64,000 nt of DNA from Acidovorax radicis. Lineage in GTDB: Bacteria > Pseudomonadota > Gammaproteobacteria > Burkholderiales > Burkholderiaceae_C. Under the pieces are notes generated by a model. The model saw only the letters and a list, made by a program, of their open reading frames with translations, did no database searches and had not been told where the DNA came from. Every line of letters begins with the position of its first letter. The stretch's first letter is position 1. A program made the translations under genes and the position numbers. This document shows, in pieces, positions 28,041-42,264 of this stretch. The stretch covers positions 1,426,001 to 1,490,000 of the forward strand of contig NZ_CP075184.1 of the NCBI RefSeq assembly GCF_020510705.1. Direction: 5' to 3'.

Positions 28041-28919
28041 TTGATAGCAATCATTCTGGCCACTCTGGCCGCCGGTATTGGCAGCGTGTGGCTCGCTGCG
28101 TTGCTTATGCGAATGGGCATGGGCGGGCGTTCTGCCAGCGTGGGGCCGCAGCACCTGCTCAGCTTGGCTGCCGGGGCGCTGCTGGCCACCGCCTTCATGC
28201 ACCTGCTGCCCGAAGCGTTCGAGAGCCAGGCGGGTGCGCACGACCTGTTCGCCACGCTGCTGGTGGGCGTGGTGTTCTTCTTTTTGCTCGACAAGGCCGA
28301 GCTGTGGCACCACGGGCACGAGCACAGCCACCCCGAGCCCGCCACCAACGCGCAGGCCCATGCCCACAGCCACGCCGCTTCGCACCCTGCGCACGCAAGC
28401 CACGCGGGCCACCACGCCCACGAATCGGGCCACGAACAGGTTCACGTGCACCATCACCACGGTCCACGCGCAGGCGGTTGGGCCGTGCTCACGGGCGACA
28501 GCGTGCATTGTTTTGGCGACGGCATCCTCATTGCGTCGGCCTTCATGGCCGACATGCGCCTGGGCGTGATCGCCGCCGTGTCGGTGCTGGCGCACGAGGT
28601 GCCGCACCACATGGGCGACTTGGTGGTGCTGCGCCAGACCAGCCCCAACCGCCGCATGGCGCTGGTCAAGGTGTCGCTGGCGGGCGCCGTCACGGCGCTG
28701 GGCGGCATGGTGGGCTACTTTCTGGTGGGGCAGCTGCAAGACTTGTTACCGTACTTCCTGGCGGTGGCGTCGAGCAGCTTTGTGTACGTGGCGCTGGCCG
28801 ACTTGATCCCCCAGCTGCAAAAGCGCCTCACGGCGCGCGAAACCATTGCGCAGATTGCCTGGCTGATTGCGGGCATGGTGGTGGTCACGCTGGTGAGCGG
28901 GGCGGCGCACGCCCATTGA
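28035..28919 (+). CDS. ZIP-family metal transporter
   Basis: A 294-residue membrane protein with about eight hydrophobic segments. A long cytoplasmic loop (residues about 92-155) is packed with histidines (HGHEHSHPEP, HHAHESGHEQVHVHHHH) and should bind Zn or Ni. Transmembrane metal-site motifs HCFGDGILIA and LAHEVPHHMGD are present, so it is probably a functional Zn/Fe importer. Its start codon sits in a palindromic repeat with no clear Shine-Dalgarno. The last 192 bp occur again almost identically at 35926-36123. Confidence 0.9.
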   Translation: MTLIAIILATLAAGIGSVWLAALLMRMGMGGRSASVGPQHLLSLAAGALLATAFMHLLPEAFESQAGAHDLFATLLVGVVFFFLLDKAELWHHGHEHSHPEPATNAQAHAHSHAASHPAHASHAGHHAHESGHEQVHVHHHHGPRAGGWAVLTGDSVHCFGDGILIASAFMADMRLGVIAAVSVLAHEVPHHMGDLVVLRQTSPNRRMALVKVSLAGAVTALGGMVGYFLVGQLQDLLPYFLAVASSSFVYVALADLIPQLQKRLTARETIAQIAWLIAGMVVVTLVSGAAHAH

Positions 28920-28959: not shown

Positions 28960-29679
28960 TCAGCTGCCTCGCGCGTAATGCCCTGGCGGGGCGATGCTCA
29001 GTGCGGGTTGGTCGAACAGCGCTGCGGGCCCGGTGTGCAGCGGGTCGTGCGTGAGGTCGGCATGGTCCACCGCATACTTCATGAGCGCGGCCTGCCCCTC
29101 GATGCGCAGCTTGCGTCGCAGGTGGAGCCGGTGGGTTTCGACCGTGCGCACAGAGGTGCCCATCAATGCGGCGATTTCCTTGTTCGAGCGTCCCTCCGAC
29201 ACCCATTGCAGCACGCTCGCTTCGCGCGGCGTGAGCGAGCGGTTGGAGCGTGCCACGCTGCCCGAGTCGTCCAGCAACTGCTCCAAGCCCGGGCTGAAGT
29301 AGCAATCCCCCCGGTGCACCGCCTCAATGGCCTCGATGAGTTGTTGCGCGGGCGCATCCTTGAGCACGTAGCCGCGCGCGCCCAGCGACACCGCGCGGCG
29401 CACGTACTCGGCATCGTCGTGCATCGACAGCACCAGCACGCGCACGCGCGGAAACTGCTCGCGGAACAGGGCCGCGAGGTGGATGCCGCTGGCTGCGGGC
29501 ATGCGGATGTCGGTCAGCACGATATCGGGAGCAAGGGCATGCGCCAGCGGCAGCGATTCGCCCACGCTGGTGGCCTCGCCGGCAATGCAGATGTGCTCGG
29601 TGGCCTCTAGCCGCATGCGTACGCCGTCGCGCACCAAGGGGTGGTCATCCACGAGAAGGATCCGGATCGGAGGGGTCAT
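28960..29679 (-). CDS. NarL/FixJ-type response regulator
   Basis: A 239-residue regulator. The receiver domain has the acidic pair DD at 11-12, phospho-acceptor D57 in LTDIRMP and a K in LKDAP. The LuxR-type helix-turn-helix follows (SLTPREASVLQWVSEGRSNK then EIAALMGTSVRTVETH). The C-terminus has an unusual extra tail of about 35 residues after the helix-turn-helix. It overlaps the kinase gene by 4 bp (ATGA), a coupled two-component pair. The target genes are not visible. Confidence 0.93.
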   Translation of the reverse strand: MTPPIRILLVDDHPLVRDGVRMRLEATEHICIAGEATSVGESLPLAHALAPDIVLTDIRMPAASGIHLAALFREQFPRVRVLVLSMHDDAEYVRRAVSLGARGYVLKDAPAQQLIEAIEAVHRGDCYFSPGLEQLLDDSGSVARSNRSLTPREASVLQWVSEGRSNKEIAALMGTSVRTVETHRLHLRRKLRIEGQAALMKYAVDHADLTHDPLHTGPAALFDQPALSIAPPGHYARGS

Positions 29680-31088
29680 GCGGCAATCTGCGAAGCGTCG
29701 AAATCATCAGCGGGCGCGGGGCGGGCCTGCGCGGCCAGGTCAAGCACGGCCACGATGCGGGTTCCGCTCTGGTCAGAAGCGATGGAAAACTGGCCGCCCA
29801 GGCCCTCAATGCGCTCACGCATGTTGCGCAGGCCAATGCCGCCCTGGCCGTCGCGCTGCACGCGCCGCACGTCAAAACCTCGGCCATCGTCGCGCACCTG
29901 CAGCGTCACGCGGCGGCGCTGGAATTGCAGCGCCACCTCCACGTGGGTCGCCTGTGCATGGGCCTGCGCGTTCATGACGGCCTCCTGCACCACGCGAAAC
30001 AGCGCCGTGCTGTGGCTGGTGGGCAATGGCAGGGCCGGGCCGCGCGATGTGAAGCCTATGTCGAAAACGCCCTGGCTTTGCACCTGCTGGCTCATGAGCG
30101 CGAGTGCGGGGGCCAGGCCCAGATCATCGAGCAAGGCAGGGCGTAGGGCGTGCGACACGCGCCGGATCTCGAGCAGTGCATGGTTGAGCCGCTCGAGGCC
30201 CTGGTCCAACATGCGGCGAGGGGCTGGTGGATCTTGGGCGGGGGGCGTGGGCAATTGCGATTGGGCTGTCTCCAGCAAGAACTTGGATGACACCAGCACC
30301 TGAACCACGCCATCGTGCAACTCGCGCGCCACGCGCACGCGCTCTTCTTCCTGCGAATGCACGACCCGCTGCGCCAGCCGGCGCAGCTTGGCGCTGGATA
30401 CGCGGTGGTCGCTCAGGTTCAGCGCCAGCCCGGCCACGCCGATGAGCACGATGCACAGGGCTGCGATAGCGTAGATGTGCCAGCGCGTGCTGGCGATGTT
30501 CTCCTGGGCGCTTTCGTCGATCTTGCGCAGGGCGTTGTGCACGTCGTCAAGGTACAGGCCCGTGCCCACGGCCCAGCCCCAGCCCGGCACCGACGCCACG
30601 TAGCCCAGCTTGGGCACCATCAGCTGGGACGAGGGCTTTTGCCAGCTGTAGCGCACCAGGCCCCCGCCATTGCGGGCCGTGTCGAGGATGAGCCGCGCGG
30701 GCAGTGCGCCATTGGGGCTGTTCGGGTCGCACAGGTCCACGCCCTGCAGTCCCATCTGCTGGGCATCGAGTAGCACCTTGCCGTCCTTGTCGTAGACGAA
30801 GAAGTAGCCGTCCTGCCCGAATTGCATCTGCGCCAGCATGGCCAGTGCCTGCCGCTGCTGGGCCTGCGGGTCGTCGCCATTGTTCATGATGCGCGCCAGC
30901 GCGCTGTGGGCCAGTTGCACGTAGTGCCGCAGCTCGGTTTCCTTGCTGTGCAGATAGGCCGACTCCACCAGTTCCCGCTCCTGGTGGGCCAGCTTCAGGG
31001 TCTGGTGCTGCACCGTCACGGCGACCAGGCCCAGCGCGACCACGATGGGCACCACAGACAGGAGTGCGAGTTTCAGCCGGAGTTGCAT
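29676..31088 (-). CDS. Cache-domain sensor histidine kinase (NarX/UhpB class)
   Basis: A 470-residue membrane kinase. Transmembrane segment 1 is at 8-27, and a periplasmic sCache_2 domain (residues about 35-195, FGQDGYFFVYDKDGKVLLDA and GWGWAVGTGLYLDDV) suggests sensing of a small organic acid or similar ligand. Transmembrane segment 2 is at 205-226. A HisKA_3 dimerisation domain has H258 in RELHDGVVQVL, followed by a HATPase with DDGRGFD and GGIGLRNMRERI. The ATG at 31088 places the first membrane segment properly; upstream in-frame starts (31154, 31190) add unlikely residues. An IS element sits 115 bp upstream. Confidence 0.92.
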   Translation of the reverse strand: MQLRLKLALLSVVPIVVALGLVAVTVQHQTLKLAHQERELVESAYLHSKETELRHYVQLAHSALARIMNNGDDPQAQQRQALAMLAQMQFGQDGYFFVYDKDGKVLLDAQQMGLQGVDLCDPNSPNGALPARLILDTARNGGGLVRYSWQKPSSQLMVPKLGYVASVPGWGWAVGTGLYLDDVHNALRKIDESAQENIASTRWHIYAIAALCIVLIGVAGLALNLSDHRVSSAKLRRLAQRVVHSQEEERVRVARELHDGVVQVLVSSKFLLETAQSQLPTPPAQDPPAPRRMLDQGLERLNHALLEIRRVSHALRPALLDDLGLAPALALMSQQVQSQGVFDIGFTSRGPALPLPTSHSTALFRVVQEAVMNAQAHAQATHVEVALQFQRRRVTLQVRDDGRGFDVRRVQRDGQGGIGLRNMRERIEGLGGQFSIASDQSGTRIVAVLDLAAQARPAPADDFDASQIAA

Positions 31089-31202
31089 GGGAGTGAAGAG
31101 GTGACCCCTCACTATCTGTCGGCCTTGATTTTTGTCAATGGGATTTGTTCCCATGGCCAGGCGCCGCGGACGGGTGGAATACACCAGCACACTGGGTTCT
31201 TA

Positions 31203-32389
31203 GGGATGTTCTGAACAACTCGGTTTCGCGCGTGCTACGAGACTGAGTTTTTCAGCTGGCGCAATGGAGACCGTCTTTCCTGCGGTTCCGTCTTGTTTGG
31301 TGCCCCTTGTGGGGGCCGCTTGCGCAGCCGCTGCGGCTGCACGGCTGTTTGCGGACGCACTCATGCCTGCGCCCCCAGCAATTGGTGGCGCACCATCCAC
31401 AGGTTGGACAGCGCAAACAGCGTCTTGAGCTGCAGTGTGTTCTTCTTCAATCCCCGGTAGCGCGCCTTCACATATCCAAACTGCCGCTTGATCACCCTAA
31501 AGGGATGCTCCACCTTGGCCCGGATGCTTGCCTTGATCTTCTCCATCTGGTCTATGAGCGCGTCAACGAGGTTGTGCTCTTTGTCCAGCTCTTTGCGCTT
31601 GCCCGGGCGCATCGCTATGTGCCACGTCACGCCCGCCCTGGCATCCGGGCGCTTGTGAACGCCTTGATAGCCCGCGTCACCAAACCCGTCTTTTTCTTGC
31701 CCGTGCAGCAAGCTGTTGCCTTCTACAACGTCGGCCACGTTGCCCGAGGTTCCGATGACGGTGTGCACCAGTCCTGAGTCCGCGTCCACGCCAATGTGGG
31801 CCTTCATGCCAAAGTGCCATTCATTGCCCTTTTGGCTTGAGTGCATCTCTGGATCGCGCTTTCTGTCCTTGTTCTTGGTAGAGCTGGGCGCTGCGATCAA
31901 CGTGGCGTCTACCGCAGTGCCCGCCTTGAGCAGCAAGCCCTGCGCTGCCAGCAGTTCGTTGACGGTGGCCAGAATCTGCTCGGCCAGCTTGTGCTTCTCC
32001 AGCCGGTGGCGAAACCTCAAAATGGTGCTCTCGTCAGGCATTCGTCCATGGGCATCAAGCCCTGCAAAATCCCGGTAGATCGGGGTGTCAAAGAGGGCTT
32101 CCTCCATCGCCAGATCCGACAAGGTAAACCACTGCTGCATGCAGTGGATGCGCAGCATGGTCTCCAGGGCAAAGGGTGGGCGGCCGTTCTTGCCCTCGGG
32201 GTAATACGGGGCAATGACATCGAGCAATGCAGCCCAGGGAACCACCCGATCCATCTGGGCCAGCAGTTCCTGTTTGCGGGTCTTCTTGGTGCTCAGGTTC
32301 AGGTCAAGGCTGCTTTGCTTCATGGCTTGCGAGGATGCCATGACTGGCCGGGGTCTATCAGACTGACCACGAGGTTTTGCAGGATTTCC
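31203..32389 (-). mobile_element. Complete IS5-family insertion sequence (1187 bp)
   Basis: The ends GGGATGTTCTGAACAAC (left) and, read inward from the right, GGAAATCCTGCAAAACC are imperfect inverted repeats. Both are flanked by TTA (31200-31202 and 32390-32392), taken as a 3-bp target duplication. One transposase gene fills the element. The right flank runs at once into a second, smaller element with related ends. Confidence 0.75.
31361..32341 (-). CDS. IS5-family transposase (DDE type)
   Basis: A 326-residue transposase of normal length. The catalytic D lies in AVDATLIAAPSSTK, the second D in GDAGYQGV, and the third acidic residue in KVEHPFRVIKRQFGY. The N-terminal domain ends with RFRHRLEKHKL. 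Two start codons six codons apart (32341 and 32323) are possible. There is no sign of a frameshift or internal stop, so the element may be active. Confidence 0.93.
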   Translation of the reverse strand: MASSQAMKQSSLDLNLSTKKTRKQELLAQMDRVVPWAALLDVIAPYYPEGKNGRPPFALETMLRIHCMQQWFTLSDLAMEEALFDTPIYRDFAGLDAHGRMPDESTILRFRHRLEKHKLAEQILATVNELLAAQGLLLKAGTAVDATLIAAPSSTKNKDRKRDPEMHSSQKGNEWHFGMKAHIGVDADSGLVHTVIGTSGNVADVVEGNSLLHGQEKDGFGDAGYQGVHKRPDARAGVTWHIAMRPGKRKELDKEHNLVDALIDQMEKIKASIRAKVEHPFRVIKRQFGYVKARYRGLKKNTLQLKTLFALSNLWMVRHQLLGAQA

Positions 32390-32392
32390 TTA

Positions 32393-32555
32393 GGGATGTC
32401 CTGCATAACTCCCTGCGGTCTGTGATAGCGCGGCCTCGGGCAGTCCGCTGCGTTGCTTTTCTTGCCAATAGCTCGGCTATTGGCTGCAAAAAGACGCCTT
32501 GCGGCCTGTCCCGATCCGCACTAGCACCGACTCGCGAAGGTTATGCAGGACATCC
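32393..32555. mobile_element. 163-bp foldback MITE-like element
   Basis: It starts GGGATGTCCTGCATAAC and ends with GGTTATGCAGGACATCC, near-perfect inverted ends related to those of the adjacent IS5-family element, and is flanked by TTA on both sides (32390-32392, 32556-32558). The two halves are imperfectly complementary along their whole length around a centre at GCCAATAGC-TCG-GCTATTGGC, so a transcript would fold into one long hairpin. It encodes nothing and would depend on a transposase supplied by another element. Confidence 0.75.
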
Positions 32556-32558
32556 TTA

Positions 32559-33140
32559 GCGGAATTCCGGCGCAGGTTGTGGTCGTGGTTTGATGATTAT
32601 TTCTTAACGCGGGAAATAGCGGCTCGAAATGCTGAATGTAAAAACCTGTGCGGCATTTTTTTGATGAAGCGCCTGCTTTTTTGAAAGCCATTAACATTAA
32701 TCGGTGGATTCATGGGGTGAAGCGCTTAAGCGGTGGGGGGGGATCGATTGCAGGGGCGCGGCCGGCTACCTGCCGATGGTCCGCACGTTTGGCCGGCTGG
32801 GGCGGTACAGATGAATCTGTGGGCTGCCAGTGGCTCGCTGCATGGGGTGGCCAGCGGGTGGGCGGCGACGGCCAGTGCGCGTTGTCAGAGGCCATTGGTC
32901 CGTGCGATCCGGTCCGCAAGGGCGACCGTCTGCGTAGTGTTGCGTAGGGGAAAAAACGATTATCTTTTGTGGGACTGTTTCTTAGAATTTCTCCGTGCAG
33001 CGACTTTGGCAGAGCACCGGTGGTGTAAGCGAATAACAAGGTCGTCTCGAGTGCTGCGGTATTTTGAATGGCTGGTTTTGAATTCGATTTCCGGTATTTA
33101 GGGTATTCGCAGGTGTTTGGTTCTTTCGGAGGAATAAACC
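32559..33140. promoter_or_regulatory. Long spacer upstream of the Rid/PLP operon
   Basis: This 582-bp stretch has no convincing gene; a 99-codon plus frame (32648-32947) has no recognisable domain. It is richer in A+T near 32580-32720 and 32945-33120. A -10-like TAGAAT lies at 32983-32988, and GGAGG at 33128-33132 sits eight bases before the Rid ATG. The promoter of the operon should lie here. Confidence 0.45.
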
Positions 33141-33605
33141 ATGGATATTCGAAAAATACGACGCCTGGCAGTGGTCGTCGGCGGCATGCTGGCGGTGGCT
33201 CTGGTGGGTTGCGCTGCGCCGGGCAAGCGTGAAGTGCTGTCCACCACGCAGATCTATCCGGCGATCGGGCCGTATTCACAGATGGTCTCGCATGGCAACA
33301 CCATCTATTTCTCGGGGGTGCTGCCGCTGAACGCTGCGGGCACTGCTGTGAATGGAACCACCATCGAAGAGCAAACCCGCGCCGTGCTGGACTTCATGGG
33401 CGCCAAGCTTCGCTCGCAGGGGCTCTCTTATGAGGACGTACTGGCCACTTCGGTGTACATGAAAGACCTCAACGAATTCGCCGCCATGAACAAGGTCTAC
33501 GGCGAGTATTTCCGCAGTGCGGCGCCGGCCCGCGCTACCGTGGAAGTCGCGCGCTTGCCGCGCGACGTGAAGATCGAAATCGCTGCCATCGTCGGCCGCC
33601 GCTGA
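33141..33605 (+). CDS. RidA-family (YjgF/YER057c/UK114) lipoprotein
   Basis: A 154-residue Rid protein with an added lipoprotein signal: MDIRKIRRLAVVVGGMLAVA leads into lipobox LVGC with Cys24, then alanine, which favours the outer membrane. The Rid core follows, and PARATVEVARLPRDVKIEI holds the arginine (R in PAR) that anchors substrate carboxylate in active RidA enzymes. RidA proteins hydrolyse reactive enamine/imine intermediates such as 2-aminoacrylate. Cytoplasmic RidA has no signal, so export is unusual. It is followed after 24 bp by a Tat-exported PLP enzyme. Confidence 0.9.
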   Translation: MDIRKIRRLAVVVGGMLAVALVGCAAPGKREVLSTTQIYPAIGPYSQMVSHGNTIYFSGVLPLNAAGTAVNGTTIEEQTRAVLDFMGAKLRSQGLSYEDVLATSVYMKDLNEFAAMNKVYGEYFRSAAPARATVEVARLPRDVKIEIAAIVGRR

Positions 33606-33629
33606 ACCCCCACCTCGATAGGAGCCACC

Positions 33630-35099
33630 GTGAAAAACAACACCTCAGTGATGACGGCCCCCTCGGCCGCAGGCATGCCCCTCGACGGATGGGATGACTC
33701 CCGCCGCTGGACATCCAAGCGGCGCGATTTTCTGCGCATTCTGGGCTACGGGGCCGGAGCGGCCGCCCTGGCCCCGCTGGTGGCATGCGGTAGCAGCGGC
33801 GCCGCCACTGTGTCCGAGGCCCTGCGCGAGCAGCTGATGAAAGATGAAGCCTTCTGGACCAGCGTGCAGAACATGTTCACGCTTAAGCCCGAAAAGACCT
33901 ACATGAACATCGGCACCGCCGGCTCCATGCCCAAGCTGGTGCTGGACGTGTTCGACACCGAGAACCGCAAGAAGGCTGCCGATTCGGGCAACGGCTATAC
34001 CAACCTGCTCGACCTGCGTAAGCAGGTGGCGCCCGGCTTTGGCGTGGACCCCGATGAACTGGCCTTTTCGGCTAATACGTCCTCGGGCATGTGCCACGCC
34101 ATCCTGGGCATCGACTGGAAGGCAGGCGACGTGATCGTGACCACCAACCACGAGCATGGTGGTGGCGACACACCGCTCAAGATCGCCCAGGACCGCTATG
34201 GCATCGAAGTCTCGCGCATCGCACTGCCCGTGGGCAACAAGCAGACCGCCGCTACCTATGTGAATCTGTTCGATGAGCGCATCCGTGCCCTGAAAACCGC
34301 AGGCAAGCGCGTGCGCGCCATGATGTGGTCTTCTCCCACCTACAAGACCGGCACCATGCTGCCTATTGCCGACCTCATGGAGGTGGTGAAGGCGCACGGG
34401 CTCATCAGCATCGTCGATGGCGCCCACCTGCCGGGCATGATGGCCTACAACTATGGCGAGCTGGGCATGGACTTCATGTCGGGTGCCGGCCACAAGTGGC
34501 AGTGTGGGCCGGGCTCCACGGGCATCCTGATCGTGCGCAACAAGATTCGCGCCTCCAACCCGCTGCCACTGCCCAAGTGGTACCCAGTCCACACTAGCGC
34601 CTACCCGGCGCTCGAGCGCACGACCACGGGCAAGGAAACCTACGACGTGGCGGCGTCCATCACCTCGTGTGGCAGCGTGCATACGCCCATGTTCCAGGCG
34701 CTGGTGCAGGCCTGCGCGCAGTGGGACAGCATCGGTCGCAAGAAGATCGAAACCTACGATCTCACGTTGGCGTCCTACCTGAAGGAAAAAATCGCCGAGC
34801 GCTGGGGAGTGGACGCGCTGTATTCACCCAAGGACGATCCCAAGCTGCTCTCGGCCCTTACTTCGTTCAATCCGTTCCAGAACAAGGACGACGTGATGAA
34901 CGCGCAGAAGTCCAGCACCTTCGTGGCCCGCATGCTCAGCGACTACCCGCAGGGCTTTGTGATTCGCAATGCGAACTTCTCCGTGATCGGCGCGGCGGCC
35001 GACCATTACGGCGTGCGTGTCTCGACGCACCTGTGGCACGACGCGCGCGATGTCGACCTGCTGGTCGACGCCATGTGGGACCTGTCGCGCAAGATGTGA
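33630..35099 (+). CDS. Tat-exported class V aminotransferase-fold PLP enzyme (PvdN/isopenicillin N epimerase-like), predicted lipoprotein
   Basis: A 489-residue protein. The N-terminus has a twin-arginine signal (SKRRDFLRILG, RR at 31-32) ending in a lipobox-like LVAC with Cys53. The PLP domain shows SIVDGAHLPG (D263, pyridine nitrogen contact) and SGAGHKWQCG (K289, Schiff-base lysine). The fold is class V, like cysteine desulfurases and isopenicillin N epimerase. PvdN, a periplasmic Tat-exported PLP enzyme of pyoverdine maturation, is a known precedent, but no pyoverdine genes are here. Tat export allows folding with PLP in the cytoplasm. The substrate is unknown. It is cotranscribed with the Rid lipoprotein. 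Confidence 0.9.
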   Translation: MKNNTSVMTAPSAAGMPLDGWDDSRRWTSKRRDFLRILGYGAGAAALAPLVACGSSGAATVSEALREQLMKDEAFWTSVQNMFTLKPEKTYMNIGTAGSMPKLVLDVFDTENRKKAADSGNGYTNLLDLRKQVAPGFGVDPDELAFSANTSSGMCHAILGIDWKAGDVIVTTNHEHGGGDTPLKIAQDRYGIEVSRIALPVGNKQTAATYVNLFDERIRALKTAGKRVRAMMWSSPTYKTGTMLPIADLMEVVKAHGLISIVDGAHLPGMMAYNYGELGMDFMSGAGHKWQCGPGSTGILIVRNKIRASNPLPLPKWYPVHTSAYPALERTTTGKETYDVAASITSCGSVHTPMFQALVQACAQWDSIGRKKIETYDLTLASYLKEKIAERWGVDALYSPKDDPKLLSALTSFNPFQNKDDVMNAQKSSTFVARMLSDYPQGFVIRNANFSVIGAAADHYGVRVSTHLWHDARDVDLLVDAMWDLSRKM

Positions 35100-35195: not shown

Positions 35196-35925
35196 TCAGC
35201 CCGCGAGTTTCTCCCGCACTGCGGCTACCTGGCGCCGCGACACCATGAGCAGTTCGGCCAGCCCCTGCAGGCGCACGGCCCAGCCTTCACCTTCTTCGGG
35301 ATCGTAGTGCTTCTCCAATGCACGCACGGCGCGGCGCGCCACCAGCGCATTGCGGTGGATGCGCAGGAAGCGCGGTGTGTAGCGGGTTTCGAGATCGCTC
35401 AGCGCGCCGTCCATGACGTAGCTGCGGGTGGCGGTGCGTATCGTGAGGTACTTCAGTTCTGCCTTGAAGTACAGCACCTCGGCCAGGGGCAGGCGCTCGG
35501 TTCTGCCGCGGTCCTGAATGACCAGGCTTTCGCTGTCGGTTGTGGCAGGGGCGGTGAGGGCGGGTACCTGGCGACCGTTGCACTGCACCTTGGTCAGTGC
35601 TTGCTGCAGCCGCTCGCGCCGCACGGGCTTGGTGAGGTAATCCACGGCGTCGAGCTCGAAGGCACTCACCGCATGGTCGGCGTGGGCGGTGACGAACACG
35701 ACGGCGGGGGGCTGAGGCAGGGTGTGCATAGCATGGGCCCACGACAACAGGCCGTCCTGGCCGGGCATGTGGATGTCGAGCAACACCAGGTCGATGGTGC
35801 GGCCCCCGTGGCTCCGAGCAATGCCAGGGCCTCGCCTGCATTGGAGACTTTGGTGACCGTGCTGCGCACGGTGTTGTGGCAATCGGCCAGCAGGGTGCGC
35901 AGGCGGCTGCGGGCTGCAGTCGAGC
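35196..35925 (-). pseudogene. LytTR response regulator, 5'-truncated and frameshifted
   Basis: Closely related to the intact regulator at 41515-42264 over nearly its whole length (VLLDIHMPGQDGL, TKPVRRERLQQAL, FLRIHRNALVARRAVRALEK). The first 12 or so codons are missing: homology begins at ARSRLRTLL next to a ZIP-gene fragment. A one-base deletion in a G run (C run at 35803-35807 on the plus strand) then shifts the frame between LLGATG and TIDLVLLD. The LytTR DNA-binding domain itself is intact, but without a start and a whole receiver it should be non-functional. No kinase gene is next to it. Confidence 0.88.
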
Positions 35926-36123
35926 CTGGTGGGGCAGCTGCAAGACTTATTACCGTACTTCCTGGCGGTGGCATCGAGCAGCTTTGTGTACGTGGCGCTG
36001 GCCGACTTGATCCCCCAGCTGCAAAAGCGCCTCACGGCGCGCGAAACCATTGCGCAGATTGCCTGGCTGATTGCGGGCATGGTGGTGGTCACGCTGGTGA
36101 GCGGGGCGGCACACAGCCACTGA
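35926..36123 (+). pseudogene. ZIP transporter 3'-end copy
   Basis: This repeats the last 192 bp or so of the ZIP gene (28722-28919) with only about six differences, beginning at CTGGTGGGGCAGCTGCAAG and ending GAAHSH instead of GAAHAH. The first 230 codons are missing. The fragment is fused head to head with the truncated LytTR pseudogene, so both genes lost their 5' ends at one junction. Confidence 0.9.
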
Positions 36124-36166
36124 GGCTGTTGAATGGGTTGGGCAGGCACCAGCGCAGGCACCCAGC

Positions 36167-37108
36167 TCAAGCTTTACGCAGAGCCTGGGTGAGGAACTCC
36201 AGGCAGTTTTGCACCAGGGGTGGTCTCGCGTCCTTGGCGGCATGCACCATGAGTGCCACCTTGCGTGAGATCACCGGGGCCTGCAGCGGGCGCACCTTCA
36301 CGGTGCCGTCGTGCAGGCTATGGGTGTACAGCCGCGAGATCACGCCCACCGCCAGCCCGCAACGCACCAGGCTGTAGAGCGATTCGCTGTACAGCAGCTG
36401 GTCGGCATGCGCCAGATCGGCCCCGTGCTGGCGCAAGGTGGCCATGGCCAGCTCGTAGGTGCTGCCGCGCGCAAACAGTGCCAGCCGTTCGCCGGCCAGG
36501 TCTTGCCAGGTCAGGCGTGCGCGGCGTGCCAGCGGGTGGTCCACGGGCAGCACCGCAACCAAATCGTCTTGCGCCATGGCGATGGCTTCGATCTGCGGCG
36601 GCAAGTCCAGTGCAACACCCAGCGCCAGGTCCACTTCACCGCGCTGTAGCGAGGCCAGCAGGTCGTCGTTGAGCGGGTCGTAAAGGCGCAGGTCCACATC
36701 GGGGTGCTGCGCCAGCCACTGCCGCAGGGGCTCGGCCAGCAGGTGCATGGCCGAGGGCAGGGCGGCCACGCGCAGGGTGCGCTTGCCATCGTGGAGCGTG
36801 CGAAACAGCCCATCCACCCCTTGCTCAAAGCCATTGATGAGCCGCTCGACCTGCGGCAACAGCTGGGCGCCCTGAGGGGTGAGGCGTACATGGTGCGTGC
36901 TGCGCTCCAGCACTGGAGTGCCCAGCACGGCCTCCAGCTCGCGGATGGAGGCCGACAGCGCGGGCTGCGTGAGCGACAGCGCCTCGGCCGCCTGCCGAAA
37001 GCTCATGGCCCGGGCCACCGCCTGAAAGCTGCGTAACTGGCGCAGCGTAGGGGAACGTTGTGCGGGTGCGGGCTCTGCGGCGAGGAGTGTTGCGGGGGGC
37101 TTGCTCAT
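36167..37108 (-). CDS. LysR-family transcriptional regulator
   Basis: A 313-residue regulator with winged helix-turn-helix LRSFQAVARAMSFRQAAEAL followed by SLTQPALSASIRELE, and a standard substrate-binding domain ending VQNCLEFLTQAL. It is divergent from the adenosine deaminase/Bug operon with 69 bp between the starts, an A+T-rich spacer containing ATAAATTAG and CAAATTAAATC that could hold LysR sites. It probably controls that operon. Confidence 0.92.
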   Translation of the reverse strand: MSKPPATLLAAEPAPAQRSPTLRQLRSFQAVARAMSFRQAAEALSLTQPALSASIRELEAVLGTPVLERSTHHVRLTPQGAQLLPQVERLINGFEQGVDGLFRTLHDGKRTLRVAALPSAMHLLAEPLRQWLAQHPDVDLRLYDPLNDDLLASLQRGEVDLALGVALDLPPQIEAIAMAQDDLVAVLPVDHPLARRARLTWQDLAGERLALFARGSTYELAMATLRQHGADLAHADQLLYSESLYSLVRCGLAVGVISRLYTHSLHDGTVKVRPLQAPVISRKVALMVHAAKDARPPLVQNCLEFLTQALRKA

Positions 37109-41514: not shown

Positions 41515-42264
41515 TCAGCGCGCCAGTTCTTCCCGCACGGCCGCGACCTGTCGGCGGGATACGGTGAGCAGCTCGGTCGACCCTTGCAGGCGCACGGCCC
41601 AGCCTTCGCCTTCCTCGGGGTCGTAGTGTTTCTCGAGCGCACGCACGGCCCGGCGCGCCACCAGCGCGTTGCGGTGGATGCGCAAAAACCGCTGGGCGAA
41701 CTTCGCTTCGATCTCGCTGAGAGATCCGTCCAGGATGTAGCTGCGGGTGGCGGTGCGCACCGTCACGTATTTCTGTTCGGCCTTGAAATACAGCACCTCG
41801 GTCAGCGGCAACCGCTCGGTGCGCCCCCGGTCCTGGATCAGCAGGGTCTCGCCGTCGGGCACGCTGGAGGGGGGCGGTGGTGCAGCGCCGCGGCCGCTTC
41901 GCTGCACCTTGGCCAGCGCCTGCTGCAGGCGCTCGCGGCGCACGGGTTTGGTCAGGTAGTCCACGGCATCGAGCTCGAACGCGCTCACGGCGTGGTCGGC
42001 GTGGGCCGTCACAAACACCACGGCGGGGGGCTGGGGCAGCGCCTGCAGGGTATGGGCCAGGGCCAGGCCATCCTGCCCGGGCATGTGGATGTCGAGCAGC
42101 ACCACGTCAAACGCGCGCCCCCCAGTGGGGCCCAGCAGCGCCATCGTCTCGGCAGCGTTGGAGGCTTCGGCCAGGGTGAAGCGCTGGGTGTCTGCGCAGT
42201 CGTTCAGCAGGGTGCGCAGGCGGCTGCGCGCCAGGGCTTCGTCGTCAACGATGAGGATGTTCAT
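41515..42264 (-). CDS. LytTR-type response regulator (AlgR/LytR class)
   Basis: A 249-residue regulator. The receiver domain has acidic VDDEA, phospho-acceptor D58 in LLDIHMPGQDG and TKPVRRERL. The C-terminal LytTR DNA-binding domain has RTERLPLTEVLYFKAEQKYV and FLRIHRNALVARRAV. It overlaps the kinase stop by 20 bp in the same operon. A degraded paralogue lies at 35196. LytTR regulators often control adhesion, twitching or virulence in this class; the target is unknown. Confidence 0.93.
   Translation of the reverse strand: MNILIVDDEALARSRLRTLLNDCADTQRFTLAEASNAAETMALLGPTGGRAFDVVLLDIHMPGQDGLALAHTLQALPQPPAVVFVTAHADHAVSAFELDAVDYLTKPVRRERLQQALAKVQRSGRGAAPPPPSSVPDGETLLIQDRGRTERLPLTEVLYFKAEQKYVTVRTATRSYILDGSLSEIEAKFAQRFLRIHRNALVARRAVRALEKHYDPEEGEGWAVRLQGSTELLTVSRRQVAAVREELAR

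Follow-up and report, generated by a model that had tools for sequence, protein, structure and literature searches.

Two adjacent genes of Acidovorax radicis, within a 64,000 nt stretch of contig NZ_CP075184.1 (here called the window), encode a Rid-family protein and a class V pyridoxal 5′-phosphate (PLP) enzyme, each with an export signal. The adjacency, the export motifs, a conserved box upstream and a divergent gene pair for a Cache-domain kinase and a LuxR-type regulator are legible in the DNA itself. Together they are consistent with a sensor-controlled extracytoplasmic two-enzyme module, in which an amino-carboxylate sensed outside would be converted by the PLP enzyme and the resulting enamine or imine hydrolysed by the Rid protein; this reading is preferred with about even confidence. 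Rid action on the products of PLP enzymes in the cytoplasm is known already, as are PLP enzymes exported by twin-arginine translocation (Tat). An exported Rid/PLP pair with its own sensor would be new, as a variant on those known parts; no description of one was found among the literature matches listed, in a search that most subscription papers fell outside. In the available text of papers on nicotine and chitin pathways, Rid proteins occur in catabolic clusters with their steps placed in the cytoplasm.

The Rid/PLP gene pair

The Rid gene encodes 154 aa with the N-terminus MDIRKIRRLAVVVGGMLAVALVGC. The PLP gene follows after 24 bp and encodes 489 aa, with the twin-arginine motif SKRRDFLR, the lipobox LVAC and the Schiff-base lysine within GHKW (Table 1). 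Coordinates, intergenic gap and the motifs of both proteins agree with an earlier, sequence-only reading of the locus, both on re-reading of the letters and by family models. Export signals were throughout read as motifs, by regular expression and by eye, and are not predictor output. The genome, searched as a single contig of 4,995,154 bases, encodes five Rid proteins; no signal is evident in the three that were read out of the remaining four. Only two other class V relatives of the PLP enzyme are present, both distant.

The Rid protein scores 127.4 bits against TIGR00004 (cut-off 106.25) and 113.1 bits against PF01042. Arg131 and Glu146 are conserved without exception in the 65 paired Rid rows and presumably correspond to Arg105 (substrate binding) and Glu120 (catalytic) of Escherichia coli RidA. 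In family score and catalytic residues the protein resembles the RidA/YjgF enamine/imine deaminases, from which it differs by its export signal; in a survey of the Rid family the terms signal peptide, periplasm and lipoprotein are absent by term counts (PMC4433059). An exported Rid might also be a holdase-like envelope stress protein rather than a deaminase, lying in the operon by happenstance. RidA has a chaperone-like role under reactive chlorine stress. The available text of a paper on such stress names RidA 13 times (PMC7464077). However, the retention of both catalytic residues and the specific link of the Rid to one PLP family speak against a holdase, which is considered very improbable.

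Conservation of the pairing

The PLP enzyme is present in 3 of 36 genomes of the genus (own included), in 30 of 399 genomes drawn from the family (18 of 141 genera) and in 6 of 398 drawn from the phylum. As judged from these genomes, the pairing is patchy but tight. An exported-type Rid occurs in 28 of the 399 family genomes and together with the PLP enzyme in 27, a co-occurrence on which chance pairing was rejected; in the 28th (G441) the Rid is followed by a weaker Tat PLP homologue, unlisted at the PLP search cut-off. A Rid gene lies next door in 29 of the 30 PLP-positive family genomes. The remaining one, G264, has three Rids without signals and none adjacent.

The homologue set comprises 80 loci from named genomes, from which the window's own record was possibly left out; the closest is that of Acidovorax delafieldii 2AN (97 %). 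Rid is adjacent in 51 of these (L011–L051, L054–L058, L060, L061, L077, L078 and L083), two of which belong to Microvirga, an alphaproteobacterium. Gene order is mostly Rid-PLP, with PLP-Rid in Cupriavidus, Lampropedia, Verticiella, Cognatazoarcus, Roseateles, Rubrivivax and some others. The pair first noted in this one strain is thus conserved beyond it, and in both orders.

In a tree of 89 Rid rows and 132 columns, many forks of which are unresolved, a single branch (Shimodaira–Hasegawa-like approximate likelihood-ratio support 92) separates the 65 paired rows from 24 unpaired Rids. The three labels need 4 changes on this tree, the minimum possible being 2; starred branches force fewer. L025 was labelled RidFirst by hand, its stop-to-stop PLP frame overlapping, and L103 likewise by script. 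L004, L120–L153, second copies of paired Rids (L156–L159, L161 and L165), matches spanning <90 model positions and identical domains were left out. Because the paired Rids group together with 4 label changes, the adjacency seems to have outlived changes of gene order.

Export signals of both partners

Signals were tabulated for 82 paired loci, among which L009–L010 and several of L091–L118 are strain repeats. By regular expression, the Rid/PLP combinations are lipoprotein/lipoprotein in 61 loci, lipoprotein/Tat-soluble in 10, Sec/lipoprotein in 7, lipoprotein/unread in 2, and Sec/Tat-soluble and unread/Tat-soluble in 1 each. The expression found no PLP motif in L041 (search window) and L060 (split frame); by eye, L057 (scored ‘?’) and L110 (scored ‘lipo’) carry ordinary Sec signals. 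With both kinds of reading, the paired Rid has a readable export signal in 82 of 82 loci. These motifs support the claim that both window proteins are exported, and no paired homologue was found in which the Rid lacked a signal. The further claim of matched lipoprotein signals holds for the window pair and not as a rule, the other 21 loci being mixed or partly unread; by these motifs, export is common to both partners and a matching lipid anchor is not.

No export signal was visible in any of 25 unpaired Rids read. Ten genomes gave 51 Rid matches; among the 28 that were read, an export signal is confined to six, namely the PLP-adjacent Rids of G093, G138, G208, G276, G283 and G769. Likewise, 27 of the 29 Rids that ranked next in other genomes of the class have no signal; in L188 and L201 a hydrophobic stretch lies upstream of the nearer Met and the signal call is unsure. 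This class-wide search gave matches in 197 of 274 genomes at a cut-off too loose to part exported from ordinary RidA, and signals were read in only the 30 loci returned.

Identity of the PLP enzyme

The PLP enzyme scores 73.4 bits against PF00266 (cut-off 21.5), and its Arg463 takes the place of the C-terminal Arg in an alignment with the SufS-like enzyme of the same genome. In SufS and IscS a catalytic Cys loop precedes this arginine. The loop is missing from the window enzyme (RNANFS, versus RTGHHC in the SufS-like L002), and a cysteine desulfurase was rejected. The top sequence-profile matches in the PDB are C-DES, the Egt2 sulfoxide lyase and PvdN. C-DES, an L-cysteine/L-cystine C-S lyase, and Egt2 are beta-eliminating class V enzymes with an aminoacrylate-type product, which RidA handles; both are cytosolic, and neither is known to be paired with a Rid. 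W290-Q291-C292, invariant after the Lys in the window family, contrasts with W-F-A in C-DES (1elq). By likeness of fold and profile only, the window enzyme may be a C-DES-type C-S lyase. In four homologues (L084, L086, L087 and L088) Glu replaces His176 (NMEEDA), and their chemistry may differ.

PvdN of Pseudomonas, which acts in the periplasm in pyoverdine tailoring, shares the class V fold and the Tat motif with the window enzyme. Structures were compared with an AlphaFold2 model from alignment A2; a weak model from the shallow alignment A1 (predicted local distance difference test 70.2) was set aside. PvdN is the best structural match by VIA-align, at 21 % identity; the top match of Foldseek alone is the Mannich cyclase LolT, followed by PvdN. 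A PvdN-like role would have the pair modify a secreted siderophore or peptide in the periplasm, with the Rid hydrolysing an imine on that metabolite. However, the score against NF051467 is far under the PvdN cut-off (75 versus 650 bits), and membership was rejected. A siderophore link, one possibility in the sequence-only reading, likewise lacks support: no siderophore or non-ribosomal peptide synthetase gene was seen among the 25 of 45 called window genes that were scanned. After Rid, kinase and regulator, the next most widespread neighbour clusters reach at most 16 of the 80 loci (several are unannotated), and such tailoring is judged unlikely. Neighbour clusters were built with a home-made codon-usage gene caller that misses some genes, e.g. 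the Rid in L020 and L021; it replaced an earlier clustering dominated by antisense open reading frames of GC-rich genes. In the available text of a review, pvdN usually sits in the pyoverdine operon, and RidA and lipoprotein have 0 mentions by term counts (PMC6206403). An Achromobacter Tat paper names PvdN in its references only.

Sensor kinase, regulator and upstream box

A two-component system, absent from the sequence-only reading, is divergent from the Rid/PLP pair (28960–31190). Its kinase cluster recurs in 38 of the 80 loci besides the window, and is co-directional with the operon in 10 Cupriavidus loci. The sensor domain scores 101.1 bits against PF17200 (cut-off 25) and aligns to 2qhk, 4exo, 4k08 and 5g4y. 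According to the available text of PMC5062169, the ligands of sCache_2 receptors such as PscD are C2/C3 carboxylates, pyruvate among them, contacted by Tyr90, His103 and Lys156. Compared with the sCache_2 sensors PscD (5g4y), Adeh_3718 (4k08) and that of Vibrio parahaemolyticus (4exo), Tyr90, Tyr143 and Lys156, all three of which contact the carboxylate, are kept in 39 of 39 window-type kinases, whereas the position of His103 is Asp in 27, Asn in 11 and Glu in 1, so that the carboxylate-contact set is not fully kept; the window protein is moreover a histidine kinase, not a chemoreceptor. An amino group on the ligand could be accommodated by Asp, Asn or Glu at this position.

A candidate response-regulator site, a tandem box of the pattern TRCGTA-N4-YRCGTARGGG conserved in 20 upstream regions, lies 190 bp before the Rid gene. 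Besides the one exact match, the genome has one further place at 1 mismatch; shuffles of the window gave a mean of 0.03 matches at ≤1 mismatch. One regulator with one target would be the natural reading of this box. The exact box occurs in 22 of the 399 family genomes, never more than once. The PLP gene is present in 19 of the 22, and there the box lies within ~230 bp upstream of the operon's first gene (Fisher p 5.5e-22 for box and PLP gene, kinship ignored). A reversed control pattern has matches in 7 of the 399. A slightly relaxed box has 33 matches in 1.5 Mb, of which 28 are at operons and 5 are not. Of the 28 divergent loci, 26 have it in the interval that separates kinase from operon; the remaining two and the 10 Cupriavidus loci have degenerate forms before the PLP gene, by eye. 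At loci without the kinase cluster it occurs at three places (L047, L051 and L078), all away from the operon start. The Cache two-component system and the box suggest that an outside compound is sensed and processed.

The same arrangement could serve signal quenching or signal making, the enzyme destroying or producing an amino-acid signal read by the adjacent sensor and the Rid merely finishing the reaction. Sensors do recur as neighbours: in addition to the Cache kinase, the Tat PLP enzyme stands beside GGDEF-EAL and SBP_bac_3 proteins in 16 Shewanella, Psychromonas and Vibrio loci with no Rid nearby (one representative per cluster scanned), so that sensory partners recur around the PLP enzyme even without Rid. 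However, an inducible catabolic enzyme would give the same layout, and the single exact box in the genome implies no wider output regulon. A signalling role is likewise rated improbable.

Proposed function

In the preferred two-enzyme module, the kinase would sense an amino-acid-like carboxylate in the periplasm and the regulator would switch on the Rid/PLP operon via the tandem box. The PLP enzyme would take up its cofactor in the cytoplasm and leave folded through Tat. In the available text on PvdN, the enzyme must bind PLP before Tat export, and PvdN-type enzymes carry PLP out with them (PMC6206403); Tat for the PLP enzyme and Sec for the Rid would make sense because PvdN needs PLP pre-bound and the Rid is without cofactor. 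Outside, the substrate may be an alpha-amino acid and the reaction a beta-elimination, a deamination or an O2-dependent one, in line with the chemistry of the related C-DES and PvdN, and the Sec-exported Rid would hydrolyse the released enamine or imine to an oxo-acid and ammonia, thereby shielding the PLP enzyme from its own enamine. According to the available text of PMC12172467, 2-aminoacrylate, on which RidA acts, is able to attack active-site PLP. Rid protection would matter for an enzyme outside the cytoplasm, where spent PLP has little prospect of replacement; since PLP is carried out with the enzyme, self-damage would be costly, and an exported Rid would answer this. More tentatively, and judged less likely than not, the locus may be a dedicated envelope circuit in which the Cache kinase reads one outside amino-acid-like compound to control a single operon. 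Of its two exported products, the PLP enzyme would convert the compound and the Rid would clear the reactive intermediate, an instance of Rid ‘pre-emption’ outside the cytoplasm selected because exported PLP is not renewable.

Several observations weigh against the two-enzyme module. No Rid is found in 29 of the 80 homologue loci, among them loci of Shewanella, Psychromonas, Vibrio, Desulfobacteraceae and Chromatiaceae and Herbaspirillum L052; in some the contig ends near the PLP gene (L053, L059, L062, L080 and L082). The PLP enzyme can therefore exist without an adjacent exported Rid. In three PLP-positive genomes of the phylum draw (G684, G687 and G732), 8 of 11 Rids were read and none is exported. 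For the pairs in Massilia, Noviherbaspirillum and Microvirga, the neighbour analysis gave no kinase cluster. As for the box, 11 of 30 PLP genomes are without the exact form, 3 of 22 boxes are in genomes without a PLP match, and binding of the regulator there is inferred from position only.

Work on RidA has so far concerned enamine stress inside cells. If the module exists as proposed, a sensor-linked Rid with a Tat-exported PLP enzyme would be the same damage problem met in the envelope, and would give a handle on the role of uncharacterised exported PLP enzymes. With one kinase, one box, one operon and two enzymes, it would also be a compact test system.

Other features of the locus and its relatives

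Table 1. Features of the Rid/PLP locus, in window positions
Feature	Position	Strand	Remarks
Rid-family protein	33141..33605	+	Sec/signal peptidase II lipoprotein signal (lipobox LVGC, Cys24, next residue Ala); ATG 33141, stop 33603-33605
Class V (fold type I) PLP enzyme	33630..35099	+	Twin-arginine motif, lipobox Cys53, Schiff-base Lys289; GTG 33630, stop 35097-35099
Shine-Dalgarno-like GGAGGA, Rid gene	33128..33133	+	Sequence reading
Shine-Dalgarno-like AGGAG, PLP gene	33620..33624	+	Sequence reading
Tandem box TGCGTAGTGTTGCGTAGGGG, candidate response-regulator site	32931..32950	+	Only exact pattern match in genome
-10-like TAGAAT downstream of box	32983..32988	+	Kept in most of 20 aligned upstream regions
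Histidine kinase (periplasmic-type sCache_2, HisKA_3, HATPase_c)	29676..31190	-	Longest frame; true start probably further in
LuxR/NarL-type response regulator	28960..29679	-	Overlaps kinase stop codon
IS5-family transposase gene	31361..32341	-	Between kinase and Rid, outside conserved module

The transposase gene belongs to an IS5-family insertion of ~1.36 kb (31202–32559), missing at the same place in A. delafieldii 2AN (L011); the insertion ends ~370 bp before the conserved box. Since it lies directly upstream of the longest kinase frame, kinase expression in this strain may differ.

Among the relatives, the PLP gene is split over frames in the Paracidovorax loci L060 and L081, and no Rid was found in L081; decay of the pair in some genomes, or sequencing errors, are possible. 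In Schlegelella, Rubrivivax and Roseateles, the pair is preceded by a gene for an exported-looking protein of PPC/PEP-CTERM type (L077, 8162–8818, the copy scanned; also L078 and L083). The Shewanella-type arrangement with GGDEF-EAL and SBP_bac_3 proteins, exemplified by L064 (9998–14905), is possibly a separate exported-PLP/cyclic di-GMP sensory system.

A 198 bp stretch from the end of a ZIP transporter gene (28722–28919) recurs at 35926–36123 with 97 % identity. The second copy lies at the 5′ end of a LytTR response-regulator frame (35196–36170), which is chimeric-looking, its receiver-domain match being without its start. The LytTR regulator genes at 35196–35914 and 41515–42231, 6 kb apart, share 78 % DNA identity over 726 columns.
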